Origin: Blastocatellia bacterium
Lineage (GTDB): Bacteria; Acidobacteriota; Blastocatellia; Chloracidobacteriales; Chloracidobacteriaceae
Reading direction: 5' to 3'
Assembly: GCA_019695185.1 (NCBI GenBank)
Contig: JAIBAN010000031.1
Location: 1-64,000, forward strand
DNA length: 64,000 bases
Made by a program: the position numbers and the translations under genes
Notes under the pieces: model-generated
The model's database searches: none
Seen by the model: the letters and a program-made list of their open reading frames with translations, nothing else
Told to the model about the DNA's origin: nothing
Part shown: positions 10,918 through 42,179 of the stretch, in pieces
Numbering within the stretch: the stretch's first letter is position 1
Layout: every line of letters starts with the position of its first letter

Positions 10918-11181
10918 GTTTCCTTCTTTTCCGCCCGCCCTGTAACGCGCACCACCTGCGCTGCCCTCTTGTTACATGCGCGTTACGGTTGCTTTCCGGC
11001 TTGCGTCACAGCACAATGTAACCCACAGTTGCGCACTTCATTTGTTACTCTTCATCCTGCAAAAATTCAGTCTGAACCAGCATCCGTTCCTGGGTGGTGC
11101 GCAAGATTGCCGGAGTTTTCCGTTGGAGGCACGGTTCGGTGGGTTTTTGCCACATCATTCCAAATTCAAGGAGCATTTTTT

Positions 11182-12120
11182 ATGTCAAGTCCTAAGGTCA
11201 GTGCCAAAAAGAAGCTCAAAATCGTAGGCGCGCCGATGGACCTCGGTGCCGACCGGCGTGGGGTTGATATGGGCCCTTCGGTCGTGCGGATTGCAGGACT
11301 CAGCGCGAAATTGCGGGCCATGGGATATGAAGTCGAAGACATCGGCAATGTGCCGGTTGACCTGGCCGAAACCCTGGCTGTCACCGACACCGACCGCCAT
11401 CATAAATATCTGGGCCAGGTGGCGAAATCGTCCGAGATTCTGGCCGAGCGGGTCGAAGGTATTCTGCATGATGACGCCCTTCCAATCATTCTGGGAGGTG
11501 ACCATTCGATTGCCGTTGGCAGTGTGGCCGGGATTGCCGCCCACTATCGCAAAAAAAATCAGCGCATCGGAATTATCTGGATTGACGCCCATGCCGACAT
11601 CAATACCCCGGAAACCTCGCCCTCAGGAAACATTCATGGCATGCCCTTAGCCTGCCTGCTGGGCATTGGCCCGAAGGAACTGGTTGAAATCGGCGGGTTT
11701 TCACCGAAAGTCCGCCCGGAAGATTGCGTGGTCATTGGTGCCCGACAGGTGGATGAAGGCGAACGCGAACTGGCCCGAAAATTGGGACTCTGTGTCTATA
11801 CCATGCGTGATATTGACGAAAAAGGCATGAGTCAGGTGATGGATGAAGCGATTTTGCATGCTTCGCGCTACACGGTCGGATTCCATGCCACATTTGATAT
11901 GGATTTTGTGGACCCCGATTATGCTCCCGGCGTGGGAACCCCCGTGCCCGGCGGCGGAACCTATCGGGAAAGCCATCTGGCGATGGAAAAAATGTTTGAT
12001 TCGGGGCGCATGCTTTCGGTGGAAATGGTCGAAATCAACGCCGTGCTTGATTCGTCCAACCGGACCGGCGAACTAGGCGCGGAACTGATTCTTTCCGCCC
12101 TCGGGAAAAAAATTATGTAG
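11182..12120 (+). CDS. rocF: Arginase
   Basis: Manganese enzyme that splits arginine to ornithine and urea. The chosen ATG at 11182 follows AAGGAG with 7-8 bp spacing; the longer open frame upstream has no family similarity. The product is 312 residues, the normal length. Manganese-site motifs are [26 protein letters not shown] and [21 protein letters not shown], with SGNIHGMP contributing substrate contacts and [12 protein letters not shown] near the end. The third motif distinguishes arginase-type members of the ureohydrolase family. It could work downstream of the cyanophycinase/isoaspartyl peptidase locus at 40-42 kb, which would release arginine. Confidence 0.92.
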
Positions 12121-34338: not shown

Positions 34339-35184
34339 TCAGGAGCCGTAGAAATGCTCCAGCTTTTGCAGAATCCGTTCGTTTTCGCGCACCAATTGCT
34401 TGTGGTTGCGCAAGCCCACTTCGGTGGCAATGGCGTTGATGACCACGGCAAAAGCCGCGAACGAATTCGTAAAAAGCAGGTTGTCGTTGCAGATAAACAA
34501 CTTGTATTCAGCCATCAAAGCCATTGGGGAGGTGGGTTTGTCGGTAATGCTGAGAATGGGAATCTGTTCCCGGCGGGCCAGTTCGGCATATTGTAACGTC
34601 GTGCGTGAGTAAGGCGGGAAAGAAAACCCAATCACCAAATCCTGCGGCTGAAGGCGCAGGATTTTTTCCTCGATGGGTGTCACCTCGGCATCCGAGGAAA
34701 TGGCATCCACGCCAACCTGCTGGAGCAAATATGAAGTCAGCCGCGCCAACGAAGCCGAAAGCCCAACGCCAATCACCAGCACCCGGCGCACCCGGCACAG
34801 ACAATCAACAATTGCCCGGAAATCGTCCGGCTGAATCCGTCCGATGGTCTGGTTGATGTTATCCACGTCCTGTTTGGCAACCCGCGTCAGGGTATCTTCC
34901 TGTCCGCGTTGACCGGCAGCCAGTTTGAAGCGTTCTTCGGGTTTGAGTTCTTCCCGCAAGTCCCGCAGCAAATCGCTTTTCAGGTCGGGATACCCTGCAT
35001 AACCAAGCATCTGGGAAAACCGAACCACCGTTGCGTTGCTGACACCCAGCCGCGCGCCCAGGGCAGCACTCGACAAAATGGGAACTTCAGTCGGGGATTG
35101 CAGCATAAAATCGGCAATCCGACGGAAATTGTCCGTCAATTGATCATAACGAGCCAGAATGCGGGTGCGAAGGAGTTGGTCCAT
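34339..35184 (-). CDS. RpiR/MurR-family transcriptional regulator
   Basis: A 281-residue regulator with an N-terminal RpiR-type helix-turn-helix (ILSSAALGARLGVSNATVVR, FSQMLGYAGYPDLKSDL) and a C-terminal SIS domain (VRRVLVIGVGLSASLARLTS, DLVIGFSFPPYSRTTLQYAE, ILSITDKPTSPMA) that normally binds a phosphosugar or other ligand. It lies next to the TonB receptor, YfcC transporter and cyanophycinase, so it may control them. The ATG at 35182-35184 has no Shine-Dalgarno site; the TCAGTCC arm of the flanking repeat ends 8 bp upstream of it. Confidence 0.9.
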   Translation of the reverse strand: MDQLLRTRILARYDQLTDNFRRIADFMLQSPTEVPILSSAALGARLGVSNATVVRFSQMLGYAGYPDLKSDLLRDLREELKPEERFKLAAGQRGQEDTLTRVAKQDVDNINQTIGRIQPDDFRAIVDCLCRVRRVLVIGVGLSASLARLTSYLLQQVGVDAISSDAEVTPIEEKILRLQPQDLVIGFSFPPYSRTTLQYAELARREQIPILSITDKPTSPMALMAEYKLFICNDNLLFTNSFAAFAVVINAIATEVGLRNHKQLVRENERILQKLEHFYGS

Positions 35185-35192
35185 ATTTTTTA

Positions 35193-35382
35193 GGACTGAG
35201 GACTGAGGACTGAGGACTGAGGACTGAGGTAAATATTCAAATTTTCGGGCTGTTTTGATTGAAAGGCCGTTAGGTTTTCAATTTTGATACTCACTGGGCT
35301 CAATTGGAAAATCACTCAGTCCTCAGTCCTCAGTCCTCAGTCCTCAGTCCTCAGTCCTGGGTTATCCCTCAGTCCTCAGTCC
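35193..35382. repeat. Inverted GGACTGA arrays
   Basis: Five exact GGACTGA units at 35193-35227 and, inverted, six TCAGTCC units at 35316-35357 plus two more at 35369-35382. The spacer is 88 bp. The element connects the start of the RpiR gene to the stop of the TonB receptor gene (stop TAA at 35384-35386, 1 bp from the array). Confidence 0.93.
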
Positions 35383-35383
35383 T

Positions 35384-38300
35384 TTAGAATGTCAGTTTCA
35401 GTGCAAATTGAATCCGGCGCGGGCCACCCGAAGCCAGCGGGTTCCCCCGGTCTGCGGTGTCGCCCAGGCTGCCGAAAGAGCTGCCGAAGAGGTCGCCACG
35501 CGGTTGGGCAAACTGCGGATGATTTGCGATATTGAAGAACTCAGTGCGGAACTGCAAGCGCATCCGTTCGGTCAGTTGGGTGTTTTTCGTCACCGAAAAA
35601 TCAACAATGCTGAATCCCGGAGCCGTCAGCAGGTTTCGCCCGGCATTGCCAAACGTCCCGAATTTCGGCTCGGCAAACACCCGGTTCAGGATGGATTTGT
35701 CAAGCGGCTGGCCGGGCCGGAATTTAATCAGGCTCAGGTCACCGATGACGTTGGGCCGGTCGTTGAATTCCAGAAAGCCCGACACATCGTCACCGTAGAA
35801 AATATCCACCGGGCGACCGGTCTGGAAATTCATAATGGTGTTGACTGCCCAGCCCGTGCCCAGCACTTTGGGCAGGAACTTCAGGTTTGGAATTTCATAG
35901 GAAATGCTGCCGGTCAAGCGATGGCGCACGTCAAAATCCGAACGGGCGCGCTCGGCGGCGAGGTTGCGCGAGTTTTGCGGGTTCACCGGACGATTACTGG
36001 AGGCCGCATCAAGTGACTTGCCAAACGTGTAACCGACCAGCGTTGAAAATCCACGGGTGTTGCGTTGCGTAAAAGTCACCTGCAAGGAATTATAGTTGGA
36101 ATTCCCCGCCGAGGTCAGGAAGTTTACATATTGATAGAGCGGGTCACCGGCCTTATTGACAAACTTGTTGTCAAACGGGCGGATTTCGTTTTTCGGGTCA
36201 AAGACCTGGTTGATGTCCTGTAACTGATAGAGCTTCGTACCGTGGCTGCCGACGTAACCGACTTCGAGCACGCCGTTTTTCCACAATTGCTGTTGCACGT
36301 TCAAACTGTAGTTTTGCGAATAGGGCGTGCGGATGTTTTCGTCAATGCCCAGCACATCCAGGAAACTGGTTGGAATCGCAAAGCTCGTGAAGAGCGGGGT
36401 CCCGGACTGCCATTTGATGGCCGAACCGCGCGGGCGAATCACATAGCTTTTGACATTGCCGGTTGGGTTGAAATTCAGCCCCAGTGTCGGGGTGATGGCG
36501 TTGAGGTTGCCGTTTTGGCCAATGAAGGCGGAAAGTGCCGGCGGGTCGTAAAACAGCCCCCAACTGGCCCGAATGACCGTCCGCCCTTTGCCGTTGACAT
36601 CCCAAGCCAGTCCGACGCGCGGAGCAAAGTTGTTGTTGTCGCGGTTGTAGGGTTTTTCCACCCCGGTGCCTACCTGGACCAGTCCCCGGTCCGGATAGAA
36701 ATTGGCGAGCAGATTGTTGGCTTCGTTGATAACGCCGAAAAACTCGTAGCGCACCCCGTAATTCAACGTCACATGCGGATGGATTTTGAATTCATCCTGA
36801 ACAAACAGGCCGAATGATTTTTGTGAAACTTCGCGCAGAGTGCTGCCGGTCAAAACCGCTCCCCGGTCCACTTTTCCGGCCAGGAAGTCCGCCAGACTGC
36901 GGAACCGGAACTCGCCCCGCGCCGCCTGGTCACGGGTGTTGACCGCCCGGTCAAACCGGTATTCACCGCCGAATTTGAGATTGTGGCGGCCTTTGGTCCA
37001 TGACACGTTGTCAATGAACGAATAGGTTTCGCTGGGGTCGGACGTGAGATTGGTCGAACGTCCGCCCAGAATGTCAAATCCCGTGATGCGGATGCGCGGA
37101 AACCCAAACCGGGTCGGGTCGGTGACGCCCGTATTGAGGCCGAAATCAGCCGGATTGACATCCCGGTCAATCGGGGCAATTACCTGAAACAGGCGCGTGT
37201 AGCCAAAGCGGAACTCGTTGACCAGCGTCGGTTTGAGTACAGTCGTGTAGCTGACACCCGCCAACTGCGAACGCTGGTTGTTGCCCGACACATATTCCGG
37301 ACGAAGGTAAAAGTTGTCCAACTCGGTCTGGTTCGTGTTGCCCAGAATGTAGCGCCCGTTAAGCGTGTTACGGCTGTTGATGGTGTAATCCAGCTTGATG
37401 ATGTAGTTGTCAATATCACTAAAGGTCGGAATGTTGACCGTGGCCTGATTCCGACTGTTGCCCGCCGGAAAGAGTGAAAGAATTTTGGCGCTCAGGGGAT
37501 TGATGCCACCCTGTTTCGGCGCAGCGGCGGAAATTGCGGCGGCACCGGGCGAATTGACCATGTAGCTTTCGCTCTGGCGCACCCGCTGCCCTTCATAGTT
37601 GCCAAAGAAAAACAGCTTGTCTTTGACAATTGGGCCTCCGAACGTAAACCCGAACTGGTTCATCCGCAAGGGGTTTTTCGGCTGATTGGCCGTGTTGAAA
37701 AAGGCGCGGGCATCAAGCTTGTCGTTGCGGAAAAATTCATAGAGCGAGCCATGAAATTCATTTGTCCCGGATTTGAGTGCAACGTTGACCACGCCCCCGG
37801 CCTTGTTGCCGTATTGTGCGCCCGGATTACTGGAGGTTGTGAATTCCTGCACCGCATCCACCGGCAGAAAACCGCCGGTTTTGATGTTGACGCCTTCCTG
37901 TCCCTGCGCCACCGTACCTGAGTAATTATCGTTGTTGCTGATTCCGTCAATCTGGTAATTGTTTGAGGTGTTGCGCTGGCCGTTGACATTGGTCGTGCCA
38001 AAGCCGCCGCCCGGACGCCGCTGAAACCCCGGACGCAAACTGAGCAAATCCTGGAAATCACGGCCATTCAGCGGCAGTTCGAGCAGTTGTTTATTGTCGA
38101 GCGTGCCACCGTTCTCGGTGGTGGTTGTGTTGACCAGCGGCGTGCCGCCCTGCACGGTGACAATTTCACCCACGGCACCCGGCTCCAGGGTCAGATTGGC
38201 CTGGGTGTCACGGGCAATATTGATTTCAACCGTCAAGGTGCCCCGCTTGAACCCCTGGGCTTCAGTTTCAATTTTGTAGGTTCCGGGCGGCAGTTCGACA

Positions 38301-38548
38301 ATTGTGAAATCGCCTGATTCATTTGTTGTAATGGTCCGCACCAGATTGGTTTGCAAATTTGTGGCGGTGATGGTGACACCTCCCAACACCGCGCCTTGTG
38401 TGTCGGTAATGGTACCAACCAGGCGGCCACGGGCGGTTTGCGCTCCGCTTGTAACAGTCATTACAAAACCCAGCAGCAACGCCAGGGCGGCCTGTGTGCC
38501 CCAGGTGGTCATGCGTTTGATGGCTGCAAAAGTAGCAAGGTAAAACAT
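35384..38548 (-). CDS. TonB-dependent receptor with carboxypeptidase-regulatory-like domain
   Basis: An outer-membrane receptor, 1054 residues. The ATG at 38546-38548 follows GGGGAG; the longer frame to 38695 reads through a heptamer array and is rejected. After the signal peptide (TQAALALLLGFVMTVTSGAQ) comes a CarboxypepD_reg-like domain (GTITDTQGAVLGGVTITATN), a plug domain (LPLNGRDFQDLLSLRPG, DGISNND) and a large barrel ending in the outer-membrane signal FALKLTF. This architecture is abundant in Acidobacteriota. Located between an RpiR regulator and a YfcC/cyanophycinase pair, it may import peptides such as cyanophycin fragments (inference). Confidence 0.92.
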   Translation of the reverse strand: MFYLATFAAIKRMTTWGTQAALALLLGFVMTVTSGAQTARGRLVGTITDTQGAVLGGVTITATNLQTNLVRTITTNESGDFTIVELPPGTYKIETEAQGFKRGTLTVEINIARDTQANLTLEPGAVGEIVTVQGGTPLVNTTTTENGGTLDNKQLLELPLNGRDFQDLLSLRPGFQRRPGGGFGTTNVNGQRNTSNNYQIDGISNNDNYSGTVAQGQEGVNIKTGGFLPVDAVQEFTTSSNPGAQYGNKAGGVVNVALKSGTNEFHGSLYEFFRNDKLDARAFFNTANQPKNPLRMNQFGFTFGGPIVKDKLFFFGNYEGQRVRQSESYMVNSPGAAAISAAAPKQGGINPLSAKILSLFPAGNSRNQATVNIPTFSDIDNYIIKLDYTINSRNTLNGRYILGNTNQTELDNFYLRPEYVSGNNQRSQLAGVSYTTVLKPTLVNEFRFGYTRLFQVIAPIDRDVNPADFGLNTGVTDPTRFGFPRIRITGFDILGGRSTNLTSDPSETYSFIDNVSWTKGRHNLKFGGEYRFDRAVNTRDQAARGEFRFRSLADFLAGKVDRGAVLTGSTLREVSQKSFGLFVQDEFKIHPHVTLNYGVRYEFFGVINEANNLLANFYPDRGLVQVGTGVEKPYNRDNNNFAPRVGLAWDVNGKGRTVIRASWGLFYDPPALSAFIGQNGNLNAITPTLGLNFNPTGNVKSYVIRPRGSAIKWQSGTPLFTSFAIPTSFLDVLGIDENIRTPYSQNYSLNVQQQLWKNGVLEVGYVGSHGTKLYQLQDINQVFDPKNEIRPFDNKFVNKAGDPLYQYVNFLTSAGNSNYNSLQVTFTQRNTRGFSTLVGYTFGKSLDAASSNRPVNPQNSRNLAAERARSDFDVRHRLTGSISYEIPNLKFLPKVLGTGWAVNTIMNFQTGRPVDIFYGDDVSGFLEFNDRPNVIGDLSLIKFRPGQPLDKSILNRVFAEPKFGTFGNAGRNLLTAPGFSIVDFSVTKNTQLTERMRLQFRTEFFNIANHPQFAQPRGDLFGSSFGSLGDTADRGNPLASGGPRRIQFALKLTF

Positions 38549-38579
38549 ACGGTTTGGTCTCCCCAAAGCTTTCAGGTAA

Positions 38580-38614
38580 TTGAGAATTGAGAATTGAGAA
38601 TTGAGAATTGAGAA
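38580..38614. repeat. Single TTGAGAA heptamer array
   Basis: Five exact TTGAGAA units, 32 bp upstream of the TonB receptor start. In the sense of that gene the array reads TTCTCAA, the same arm type that precedes other start codons in the window. No opposing arm is found before the YfcC stop. Confidence 0.88.
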
Positions 38615-38730
38615 TGAGGGGAAAGCAATTTCCTGTTTTGAAGACAAAGAACCCCCTTCTCCTGGGCATTTTTGCCGGAGTTTCGCAACACTCAAGACTC
38701 AGGGTACATCTGGATTGGAAGGTGAGCCGG

Positions 38731-40113
38731 CTACGGCCACTTGGTCAAAACCGGCCAGACGAGCAAGGCTGCCCCCACCAGAGCCAGAATAACCTGCAAC
38801 GGCCACATGAACTTAAACCAGTCTTTCCAGGGAATTTTTGCGAGCGATAAAACGCTCATCGTGACACCCGAAGTCGGAACCACGAGCGTGGTAAAGCCTT
38901 CGCCAAATTGGAAGGCCAGCACCGACGTCTGGCGGGTTACCCCAACCAGGTCGGAAAGCGGTCCCATCAACGGCATTGTCAGGGCTGCGTGCCCGCTTCC
39001 TGATGGAACCAGCAGATTGAGCAGGGTTTGCACCAGAAACTGCATTTCAGCAGCAATCAAAGGTGAACCCGAACCAATCAACGAAGAGAGGTAGTACAAA
39101 ATTGTGTCGAGGATATGGCCGTCCTGAGCCACCACCAGAATGCTCCGCGAAAGTCCAACAACAATGGCGGCTCCGGCGATGTCTTTCACTCCGGCGATAT
39201 AGGTTTCGGCAATTTCATTGGCGGTCAGTTTGCCGAAAACACCCACCAGAATACCGGTTCCCAGAAAAATCGCGGCCATTTCCGGAATGTACCAGTGATA
39301 TTTGACCACACCGAAAATCAGCAGCGTCAGCGCTGCCAGAAAGGTCACCAACACCAACAGGTGCATGGTCTGAAATTCGGTGGCCGGTTCTGTCTGCGCC
39401 TGCTCGTGTCGCCGCAATTGGTCAATTTCATAAACCGGACTGAGGTGCGGGTTGCGTTTGACCCGCCGGGCGTACCACATCACATAACTGATGCCGACCG
39501 TCACAATCACGCAGTAACAGACCGTCCGATAGCCAATGCCCGAAAACAGCTTCAGTTCGCAAATTCCCTGGGCAATGCCGACCGTGAATGGATTGAGCAT
39601 GGCTCCGGCAAACCCCAAACCGGCACCGACAAAACACATGCTGACGCCCACAATCGAGTCGTACCCCAACGCCAGTGCCAGTGGGATAAACACCAGCACA
39701 AAGGGAATGGTTTCCTCACTCATTCCAATGATTGCTCCGCCCAGCGAAAAAACCAGCATCACAATCGGTATCAGCAATTCAGACCGGTGTTTGAGCCTTT
39801 GCACGACTTTATAAATGCTCACATCAATCGTGCCGGTTTTGGCCAGAACCGCAAAAGCCCCCCCAATAAAGAAAATAAAGCTGATGATGCCGACAGTCTG
39901 CTTGATTCCCTCCACCGGAGCCATGAGCACCTGAACGTGCTGCGGATTTTGGGGTACCGGGTGAAACGAGCCGGCCACGACAATGGTGTGCCCTTCCTTG
40001 TCTTTGGAGCGCTCAAACTCACCCGCCGGTAAAATCCAGGTGCCAATGGCCGTGACCAGCAAAACTGAGAAAATCAGTACGTAGGTATTGGGAAAACCAA
40101 AAAACCGCTTCAT
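38731..40113 (-). CDS. YfcC-family amino-acid/peptide transporter
   Basis: A 460-residue inner-membrane transporter of about 11-12 helices in the YfcC/DcuC-related group. Visible features are GTWILPAGEFER near the N-terminus, ISFIFFIGGAFAVLAKTGTI, GMSEETIPFVLVFIPLALAL, the pore-like LLNLLVPSGSGHAALTMPLM and EGFTTLVVPTSGVTMSVLSL. YfcC proteins are predicted transporters of basic amino acids or C4-type substrates. It precedes the TonB gene and follows the cyanophycinase by 18 bp, so one transcript is likely; beta-Asp-Arg dipeptide is an attractive substrate. Confidence 0.88.
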   Translation of the reverse strand: MKRFFGFPNTYVLIFSVLLVTAIGTWILPAGEFERSKDKEGHTIVVAGSFHPVPQNPQHVQVLMAPVEGIKQTVGIISFIFFIGGAFAVLAKTGTIDVSIYKVVQRLKHRSELLIPIVMLVFSLGGAIIGMSEETIPFVLVFIPLALALGYDSIVGVSMCFVGAGLGFAGAMLNPFTVGIAQGICELKLFSGIGYRTVCYCVIVTVGISYVMWYARRVKRNPHLSPVYEIDQLRRHEQAQTEPATEFQTMHLLVLVTFLAALTLLIFGVVKYHWYIPEMAAIFLGTGILVGVFGKLTANEIAETYIAGVKDIAGAAIVVGLSRSILVVAQDGHILDTILYYLSSLIGSGSPLIAAEMQFLVQTLLNLLVPSGSGHAALTMPLMGPLSDLVGVTRQTSVLAFQFGEGFTTLVVPTSGVTMSVLSLAKIPWKDWFKFMWPLQVILALVGAALLVWPVLTKWP

Positions 40114-40131
40114 GGTCGTCTTGTCCTCCGG

Positions 40132-40959
40132 TCATTTCTTTGGAATAGGCTTGCGCTTCAGCAAATCAAACGCAGTGCCTGATTTGACCAGAAAGACCCG
40201 GAGGCTGTCACGTTGCGGCGTGGCTTCCACTATCATGACTTGCGTGGCCCCGACGACTTCGGCAAACCGATTGTCTGTCACCAGCAAAGCCGTATCTTCA
40301 TCAATCCCAATCCCCAAATGGTCCGGATGCCTGGCCACCAGCCCAAACAGCCGGTTTTCCCGCTGCCGTTTGATAAAATGCTGGTCAAGAATGACTCTCG
40401 GCAATAATCCCAAACCGGGCCGGGTCACCACTTTTTCACCATCAATCACGGTGAAATCACCCTCACCCGTAATCATCACCGGAGACATCACGGCAGTTCC
40501 AGCGCTTGTTCCGCCAAAAACCACTCCCGCCCGGTATCGCTCCTGTAACATCTGAAGCAAAGCCGAATCGGCCAGCACATCCATAATCCGCGCCTGGTCG
40601 CCCCCGGTAAAAAACACACCCGTTGCCTGCTGCACTTGTGTTACAAAGCGGCTTTTATCAACGGAATTGCCCATCTGAGCCGCCACCGGGGCGACTTCGA
40701 TGGAAGCCGGATGAAAAGCAGCCAAATCCTTGGACAAGGCTGCCGCGCTTTCCTGCGGTTCACCGCTGGCCCAGGGGATGACCAGCAGGCGGGCCTTGGC
40801 ACCGCCAGCCCATTCAACAAAACGGGTCATGGCGGCGGCATCCCGTTCTCCGCCACCGACCAGCACCAATCGGGTGCGGGTGGCTGCCCCGACATCCGGC
40901 AGGCAAAAAAGCACCATCAAACAGGTGCAAATGATGGCAAACGTCCGCTGATGTCGCAT
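40132..40959 (-). CDS. cphB: Secreted cyanophycinase-like S51 peptidase
   Basis: A serine exopeptidase of the cyanophycinase group, about 275 residues. The start at 40957-40959 opens a signal peptide (TFAIICTCLMVLFCLPDVGA); an ATG 18 bp upstream is possible. Characteristic segments are FFTGGDQARIMD, the nucleophile elbow GGTSAGTAVMS, ILDQHFIKRQRENRLF and GIGIDEDTALLV, which together separate cyanophycinase from plain dipeptidase E. The enzyme should cleave cyanophycin to beta-Asp-Arg outside the cytoplasm. It is divergent from an isoaspartyl peptidase across a 193-bp AT-rich region. Confidence 0.88.
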   Translation of the reverse strand: MRHQRTFAIICTCLMVLFCLPDVGAATRTRLVLVGGGERDAAAMTRFVEWAGGAKARLLVIPWASGEPQESAAALSKDLAAFHPASIEVAPVAAQMGNSVDKSRFVTQVQQATGVFFTGGDQARIMDVLADSALLQMLQERYRAGVVFGGTSAGTAVMSPVMITGEGDFTVIDGEKVVTRPGLGLLPRVILDQHFIKRQRENRLFGLVARHPDHLGIGIDEDTALLVTDNRFAEVVGATQVMIVEATPQRDSLRVFLVKSGTAFDLLKRKPIPKK

Positions 40960-41073
40960 AAGGCACACATCCCACAAGTGCTGGAGACTGTCCAGTTATT
41001 CAGATTTTTGAAATTTTGGATTCAGGGAAGGAAACAAAATCTTGAATTACTTATTACGTCAAGTTAATATAAC

Positions 41074-41087
41074 GTAACAATTGTTAC
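41074..41087. promoter_or_regulatory. Perfect 14-bp palindrome in divergent promoter region
   Basis: GTAACAATTGTTAC is its own reverse complement. It lies between the divergent cyanophycinase and isoaspartyl peptidase genes in an AT-rich stretch that also holds ATAACGTAAC. It is a likely operator, perhaps for the RpiR regulator of this locus. Confidence 0.6.
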
Positions 41088-41152
41088 AAGTATAAAATCT
41101 TTTGAACCAGTGTCAAGAGTTTTCTTGAGAAGCCATCGGAGGAATGAAATTT

Positions 41153-42028
41153 ATGAAACCAGTTCTGATTGTGCATGGAGGATGCGGCACCCCTCCACCG
41201 GGAGAGGAAACGCCCCGTATGGAAGCCTGTGAGCGGGCTGCGGATGCGGGTTGGGAAGTGTTACGGCGGGGAGGGAGCGCCCTGGCTGCGGTTGAAGCCG
41301 CCGTCTGTCAATTGGAAGACGAGCCTTTGCTCAATGCCGGAACCGGCAGCTACCTCCAGGCAGACGGGGTCGCCCGCATGGATGCAAGCCTGATGACCGG
41401 CGATGGACGCGCCGGGTCAGTGACCCAGGTGCCTGGGCTGAAAAACCCCATCCAGCTTGCCCGCTACGTGCTGGAACAGGATGCCCACGTTATGTTGTGT
41501 GGGCCGGAAGCCCTTCAATTGGGCCTTCGCCTGGGATTGGAACAGGCGGTGGTTGCGACACCGGGCAAGATTGATTACTGGCAAAAACATTTGACCGAAC
41601 ACAATCTGCGGCTGGATTACGCCAAAATGGCCGAAGAGTGGAAAAACGAGAATCCCCGGCTGGGCACGGTGGGTTGTGTGGCCCTGGATAATGAAGGCCG
41701 TTTGGCGGCGGGGACTTCAACCGGCGGGACCGGGCAATGCTATCCGGGACGAATTGGCGATACGCCGATTATTGGAGCCGGAACCTATTGCACATCCTTG
41801 GTGGGCTGCTCCATGACCGGCGTTGGCGAACGGATTATGGTCTTGCTTTCGGCCAAAAGGCTGGCTGATTTGGTCAGCGACGGCAAAACACTCACCGAAG
41901 CCGGTCACATCGTCATGCGCGAAATCGAAGGCTTGCGCAGCTTTGGTGGTTTGATTGCCATTGACGCCAACGGCAATGTTCTGGAGTTGTACAACACATC
42001 CTACATGTCAGCCGCTCGCCGAAGCTAA
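41153..42028 (+). CDS. iaaA: Isoaspartyl peptidase/L-asparaginase (Ntn-hydrolase)
   Basis: A plant-type asparaginase, 291 residues, that self-cleaves to alpha and beta subunits. The motif NPRLGTVGCVALD carries the Thr nucleophile (start of the beta chain), followed by AAGTSTGGTGQCYPGRIGD and SMTGVGERIM. Upstream are VHGGCGT and LNAGTGSYL. The ATG at 41153 is preferred: GGAGG is 10 bp upstream, while the ATG at 41144 is only 1-2 bp from it. The enzyme hydrolyses beta-aspartyl dipeptides such as beta-Asp-Arg, which fits the divergent cyanophycinase. Confidence 0.9.
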   Translation: MKPVLIVHGGCGTPPPGEETPRMEACERAADAGWEVLRRGGSALAAVEAAVCQLEDEPLLNAGTGSYLQADGVARMDASLMTGDGRAGSVTQVPGLKNPIQLARYVLEQDAHVMLCGPEALQLGLRLGLEQAVVATPGKIDYWQKHLTEHNLRLDYAKMAEEWKNENPRLGTVGCVALDNEGRLAAGTSTGGTGQCYPGRIGDTPIIGAGTYCTSLVGCSMTGVGERIMVLLSAKRLADLVSDGKTLTEAGHIVMREIEGLRSFGGLIAIDANGNVLELYNTSYMSAARRS

Positions 42029-42035
42029 AAAAACA

Positions 42036-42179
42036 GTCTAGGGAGTCTAGGGAGTCTTGGGAGTCTTGGGAGTCAAAATCCTCAGAAGTCGGAGGTCGGA
42101 AGTCGAAAGTCAGAAGTCAATCGGTTTCCGACTCCCAAGACTCCCAAGACTCCCAAGACTCCCAAGACTCCCTAGACTC
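42036..42179. repeat. Inverted 9-bp arrays with a heptamer array in the loop
   Basis: Left arm: GTCTAGGGA twice and GTCTTGGGA twice (42036-42074). Right arm: GACTCCCAA four times, GACTCCCTA and GACTC (42130-42179). The TAG variants lie at the outer ends of both arms, so the arms match in detail. The loop contains five RAAGTCR-type heptamers (42085-42119). It follows the isoaspartyl peptidase stop by 8 bp. Confidence 0.93.

Follow-up and report, generated by a model that had tools for sequence, protein, structure and literature searches.

Five clustered genes in the window (the whole stretch of 64,000 nucleotides analyzed here, contig C171 of the 8.33-Mb Blastocatellia genome G000) probably form an operon for scavenging cyanophycin, or a very similar beta-linked aspartate polymer, in a bacterium that does not produce it. 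In the proposed pathway, an exported S51 cyanophycinase would release beta-Asp-Arg from cyanophycin outside the cytoplasm, a TonB-type receptor would carry polymer fragments or the dipeptide across the outer membrane, and a YfcC-family carrier would take the dipeptide across the inner membrane. An IaaA-type peptidase would then split it to aspartate and arginine in the cytoplasm, and an RpiR-family regulator would probably repress the divergent S51 and IaaA promoters via a palindrome at the S51 promoter. Cyanophycin utilization loci have already been published, and the window locus is a well-supported further case; our addition is the widely conserved pairing of S51 and YfcC genes with exchangeable dipeptidases. 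Cyanophycin is a nitrogen store of other bacteria and the enzymes of its degradation are known, and the S51-YfcC pairing provides a testable candidate for import.

An open reading frame check of the window recovered the five genes where an earlier note on this DNA had placed them, with the RpiR, receptor, transporter and S51 genes grouped on one strand and the IaaA-type gene divergent from them (Table 1). The S51 and YfcC genes are spaced by 18 bp, and about 200 bp separate the YfcC gene from the likely start of the receptor gene (ATG at 38512 or 38461, close to the signal sequence) and likewise the receptor gene from the RpiR gene. The window thus contains the clustered cyanophycinase, isoaspartyl dipeptidase and transporter that characterize a cyanophycin utilization locus. 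The arginase which the earlier note had connected with the arginine released is a real arginase by its model score, but it lies 29 kb from the locus with no linkage seen and was ruled out as a member.

Table 1 Features of the locus and the distant arginase, with positions in the window.
Feature	Position	Strand	Basis
RpiR-family regulator (HTH_6 + SIS)	34339-35184	-	Pfam
TonB-type outer-membrane beta-barrel receptor, CarboxypepD_reg domain	35384-38695	-	Pfam
YfcC/DcuC-family inner-membrane transporter	38731-40113	-	Pfam DcuC; NCBIfam YfcC model
Exported S51 cyanophycinase (predicted)	40132-40959	-	TIGR02069, residues, AF2
Palindrome, possible RpiR operator	41073-41088	no strand	Counterpart at same place in G009
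Sigma-70-like promoter reading into S51	41089-41116	-	Consensus match; identical in G009
IaaA-type Ntn isoaspartyl peptidase, cytoplasmic	41144-42028	+	Asparaginase_2
Arginase	10969-12120	+	Arginase model 302 bits, cut-off 227.6

The S51 protein passes the TIGR02069 cyanophycinase model (185.2 bits; curated cut-off 126.6), and its score on the PepE model (46 bits) stays under the cut-off of 156. It starts with ATG (alternative TTG at 40977), and its N-terminus contains a signal-peptide-like hydrophobic stretch, read from the sequence; the inspected relatives of the same clade have such an N-terminus as well. Residues reported as critical for CphB activity are Gln101, Asp172, Gln173, Arg178, Arg180 and Arg183 (list quoted in PMC3235067). 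Alignment of the active site, a check proposed in the earlier note, showed that Q101, S132, D172, Q173, H174, R178, R180 and R183 of Synechocystis CphB are all kept in the window protein, and the catalytic Ser132, His174 and Glu correspond to S152, H194 and E221 in the ATG-start protein. The full set, with the catalytic residues, is kept by 23 of 26 aligned proteins. It discriminates in part: L073, a more remote S51 protein from this class, lacks most of it, including the Arg set. The AF2 model (pLDDT 94.4) was closest in the structure search to CphB in complex with a cyanophycin dimer (7uqw/3en0, TM 0.80/0.83), and PepE and other S51 folds reached a TM of ≤0.65 by query; one solved relative bears the name ‘pseudo-CphB’. 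The proposed secreted cyanophycinase is thus borne out by its model score, residues and signal-peptide-like N-terminus, its activity being a prediction from these features. A further exported S51 group in the class (L058, L061, L063, L060 and relatives) carries Asp in place of Arg183, and L058, L061 and L063 additionally have GGGRQ instead of GGDQ.

With CphB of Synechocystis PCC6803 (3en0, 7uqw) the window protein shares the S51 fold, the catalytic Ser-His-Glu and the polymer-binding residues. However, CphB is intracellular, whereas the window protein carries a predicted signal peptide, is ~30% identical to CphB, and matches positions 1-218 of the 250 in the cyanophycinase model only, leaving the last 32 unmatched. 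CphA-linked CphB proteins score ~280 bits on this model versus 185 bits for the window protein. Because of this lower score and the partial match, a related beta-aspartyl polymer is a possible substrate. CphE of Pseudomonas (PMC3235067) is likewise an exported cyanophycinase, but comprises ~420 aa and has Thr for Gln173, whereas the window protein has 275 aa and keeps the Gln.

In a quick S51 tree with SH-aLRT support, which includes long and probably badly trimmed rows (L104, L091 and L109) and was relied on for the main groups only, the CphA-linked CphB proteins formed a clade apart from that of the window protein. No cyanophycin synthetase was found over the cut-off in G000, which is 99.7% complete (best CphA-model match E 7e-17), and scavenging therefore fits this genome better than storage; cyanophycin storage was ruled out on this ground and by the separate position of the CphA-linked CphB clade. 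G000 encodes a second S51 protein (L074 9323-11311 on contig C122), a 663-aa open frame with a signal peptide and a C-terminal extension. It is CphE-like, with a DTH motif and the Arg set kept, and shows GIEQ in place of the GIDE of cyanophycinases, which puts Gln at the position of the catalytic Glu.

Many genomes of family f6, which includes the Pyrinomonadaceae, carry an exported S51 gene of the window clade and lack the cassette partners. The Pyrinomonadaceae members of this clade are solitary, with neither YfcC nor dipeptidase beside them, which indicates that S51 also works outside the cassette context and counts against the scavenging reading. Their neighbors (a lipid A acyltransferase, a fatty acid desaturase, a kinase and others) were considered as partners and rejected, none being related to cyanophycin. 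In many f6 genomes (L035-L053, L068, L069) a separate CphB-CphA pair exists in addition to the exported S51 gene, sometimes with two CphB genes in tandem. As the tree separates them, the exported and intracellular cyanophycinases of f6 are distinct lineages, and since these genomes carry both gene sets, the class holds probable makers as well as probable scavengers of cyanophycin.

The divergent gene encodes an IaaA-type protein (Asparaginase_2 PF01112, 265 bits) that carries the Thr nucleophile and the TSTGG and GRIGD motifs, and its T175 (the nucleophile position), T193, R203 and D206 align with the solved isoaspartyl peptidase 4o0c. We filed it as an IaaA-type relative rather than an equivalog because its score on NF007589, the E. 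coli IaaA equivalog model, was 167.8 bits against a cut-off of 567. No signal peptide was seen in the window IaaA, and the dipeptide must therefore reach the cytoplasm. In the phylum sample the protein belongs to a discrete clade of seven genomes scoring 425-659 bits, after which scores fall to 193. The IaaA gene is divergent from an exported S51 gene in four of these genomes (the window, G009, G013 and G360), and no S51 gene was found near it in the other three. G000 has a second, ordinary IaaA on contig C111. An IadA of its own was rejected as the dipeptidase, no IadA over the cut-off being present in G000.

Conservation of the neighborhood, the second check proposed in the earlier note, was evident at two levels, with all five genes in G009 and the S51-YfcC pair in 36 Acidobacteriota genomes. 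In G009 (locus L054), from another genus of the same family, the order and orientation of all five genes match those of the window, with protein identities to it of 59% for S51, 71% for the receptor, 77% for IaaA, 78% for RpiR and 81% for YfcC; S51 is hence the least conserved protein of the cluster between G000 and G009 (59% vs 71-81%), a further point against the scavenging reading. No other window-like genes were found in the flanks within the 20-kb G009 stretch, and the recurrence of the same five genes amid unrelated flanks indicates that the arrangement is not due to chance. G013 retains only the divergent S51-IaaA pair.

Linkage was surveyed over 396 Acidobacteriota genomes by comparing where the window YfcC and the S51 alignment gave matches. 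S51 and YfcC genes were ≤10 kb apart in 36 genomes of 12 families, whereas ~0.4 linked genomes would be expected with random placement among the genomes listing both. When YfcC matches were contrasted by score band, 32 of the 64 with ≥370 bits were linked to S51, compared with 4 of 60 below 370 bits. A YfcC gene was nearby at 18 of 80 S51 loci in a GTDB scan, in which some loci belong to genomes of the phylum sample, and at least four further phyla have the pair as well (Bacteroidota, Ignavibacteriota, Calditrichota and Elusimicrobiota). S51 and YfcC stay together while the adjoining dipeptidase changes: the pair is accompanied by IaaA in the window and G009, by IadA in Holophagaceae and others (L121 IadA: 508.6 bits on the TIGR01975 isoaspartyl dipeptidase model, cut-off 331), and by an M20 PepT-like peptidase in Ignavibacteria, Calditrichota, Elusimicrobia and some Acidobacteriota. 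This M20 peptidase may represent a third kind of beta-aspartyl dipeptidase, unrelated to the other two. In several phyla its gene directly precedes the S51-YfcC pair (L118 322-1434, L116, L136, L099).

The transporter, whose place in the cassette the earlier note had marked as inference, thereby proved to be one half of the gene pair that is conserved most widely within the cassette. As the pair is kept across the exchange of dipeptidases, the most straightforward interpretation is that YfcC transports the S51 product which the dipeptidase consumes, and the cassette YfcC is likely an importer of beta-Asp-Arg, as judged from its genomic context. For the S51-linked branch of YfcC-like DcuC proteins as a whole, which spans at least five phyla and interchangeable dipeptidases, we favor the same function with somewhat more confidence than doubt. 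If true, this reading would give a substrate to a family named only by resemblance and would complete the scavenging pathway. No paper joining a cyanophycinase with YfcC was found in the open-access literature searched, and the link may be new. The open-access literature likewise yielded no paper naming an importer of the released dipeptide in scavenging cells.

The protein itself matches DcuC PF03606 over positions 1-457 of 461 (377.6 bits, above the gathering cut-off) and reaches 407.5 bits on the NCBIfam YfcC model NF008611; because the cut-off of 500 of the latter was missed, we regard it as a YfcC-like member of the DcuC family and not as a YfcC equivalog. The family labels differ, NCBIfam naming a ‘putative basic amino acid antiporter’ and Pfam a C4-dicarboxylate carrier. 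No solved structure related to it by sequence was detectable. AF2 predicts an ion-transporter superfamily fold for the protein (pLDDT 83.9), with YdaH and MtrF of the AbgT family as the best Foldseek hits and ArsB and INDY carriers also scoring high. It has this fold in common with the AbgT transporters, but their solved structures, like all others, could not be related to it by sequence. The AbgT family is named for the import of a dipeptide-like compound. The shared fold in the model leaves the substrate of YfcC unspecified.

It is possible, though we consider it unlikely, that YfcC exchanges or exports a product such as arginine, ornithine or a C4-dicarboxylate, with the dipeptide entering by another route or being split before import. 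Such a function would be compatible with scavenging and would differ in the transport step only. The NCBIfam and Pfam names speak for it, as do the dicarboxylate carriers among the fold relatives; against it, the window IaaA lacks a signal peptide and so needs the dipeptide inside the cell, and YfcC is the sole inner-membrane carrier in the cluster, remains linked to S51 through the change of dipeptidase, and has its best structural hits in a family whose name refers to dipeptide-like import. Clearly less probable is a general salvage of isoaspartyl peptides, in which S51 and IaaA would recycle beta-aspartyl peptides of damaged protein or a related polymer instead of cyanophycin. The divergence of the window S51 from CphA-linked CphB and the solved relative called ‘pseudo-CphB’ agree with such a role, and IaaA and IadA are described as promiscuous even within cyanophycin clusters (PMC10206079). 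However, the polymer-binding residues of CphB are all kept in S51, its modeled fold is closest to CphB in its complex with the cyanophycin dimer, and an exported S51 together with an outer-membrane receptor is better suited to a polymer outside the cell than to damaged protein within it.

It is very improbable that the five genes owe their proximity to history alone and lack a common pathway. The ~200-bp gaps preceding the receptor and RpiR genes, and the occurrence of S51 and IaaA alone elsewhere, would suit such an origin, but they are outweighed by the order kept in G009 amid unrelated flanks, by the phylum-wide S51-YfcC linkage far above chance, and by the recurrence of RpiR and receptor genes next to S51-YfcC in unrelated groups. 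RpiR and a TonB-type receptor recur at many of the S51-YfcC loci (L102, L108, L116, L118, L136, L205 and L206).

The receptor matches OMP_b-brl_4 (PF25183, 663.6 bits), TonB_dep_Rec_b-barrel (PF00593, 39.5 bits) and CarboxypepD_reg (66.9 bits), with Plug PF07715 below the cut-off (20.1 vs 23.9 bits). Its description as a ‘dedicated’ receptor held in part: the synteny is conserved, but the family has dozens of copies in G000, so that synteny is what the term rests on. The OMP_b-brl_4 family is strongly expanded, the matching stretches numbering 58 in G000 and 63 in G009, often with several of them in a single gene.

Phosphosugars are the usual ligands of RpiR proteins, which makes such a regulator unexpected in a peptide pathway. 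The window protein has HTH_6 (65.6 bits) and SIS (56.9 bits) domains in Pfam and is the probable regulator of the cassette. The S51/IaaA intergenic region contains a promoter for S51 (TTGACA-16-TATACT; 11 of 12 consensus matches), of which the hexamers and spacing are identical in G009. Just downstream of the -10 hexamer lies the palindrome GTAAC-AATT-GTTAC (41074-41087), and its counterpart at the same place in G009 reads GTAAT-GTTC-ATTAC (L054 10608-10621), with both arms changed and the symmetry kept. The pattern CGTAAYNNNNRTTACAAG occurs once per genome in G000 and G009, both times at the S51 promoter; since these two sites served to define it, its uniqueness is weak evidence and its position the stronger. 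The palindrome may, judging from its sequence and location, be the operator of RpiR. A second palindrome copy at 38451-38464 was dismissed as chance, lying within the N-terminal coding region of the receptor and being absent from G009.

The reaction sequence from cyanophycinase via beta-Asp-Arg to isoaspartyl dipeptidase is established biochemistry, as the earlier note had stated and as PMC10206079 describes. According to that paper (Sharon and Schmeing 2023), 45 of 52 genomes that have cyanophycinase and isoaspartyl dipeptidase but lack cphA1 carry the two genes in a cluster, frequently together with amino acid transporters; where the dipeptidase is IaaA, the clustered share is 94%. These clusters share with the window the cyanophycinase-IaaA pairing and the lack of cphA1, but YfcC, RpiR and an outer-membrane receptor are not named in the portion available. 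The same source credits the term ‘cyanophycin utilization locus’ to Ben Hania et al. 2017, whose locus, as described there, resembles the window in its clustered cyanophycinase, isoaspartyl dipeptidase and transporter and in serving environmental scavenging. It differs in having IadA in place of IaaA, and the conserved set of the window adds the TonB-type receptor and RpiR. Within the same phylum, the marine Ca. Sulfomarinibacter has exported cyanophycinases and no synthetase, with an isoaspartyl dipeptidase in one MAG, but the accessible part of that report (PMC8528874) does not describe a linked transporter, receptor or regulator. S51 with YfcC, often accompanied by RpiR and the receptor, could serve as a genomic signature for recognizing cyanophycin scavengers in the uncultured bacteria of soils and sediments.

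Tandem repeats occupy or adjoin the gaps of the locus (35192-35229, 35315-35383, 38578-38615 and 42035-42074), with units of 7 bp (AGGACTG; CTCAGTC; AATTGAG) and 9 bp (AGTCTAGGG). The two arrays between the receptor and RpiR genes are mutually inverted. Short repeats are also found in the cassette gaps of G009, but they are different ones.
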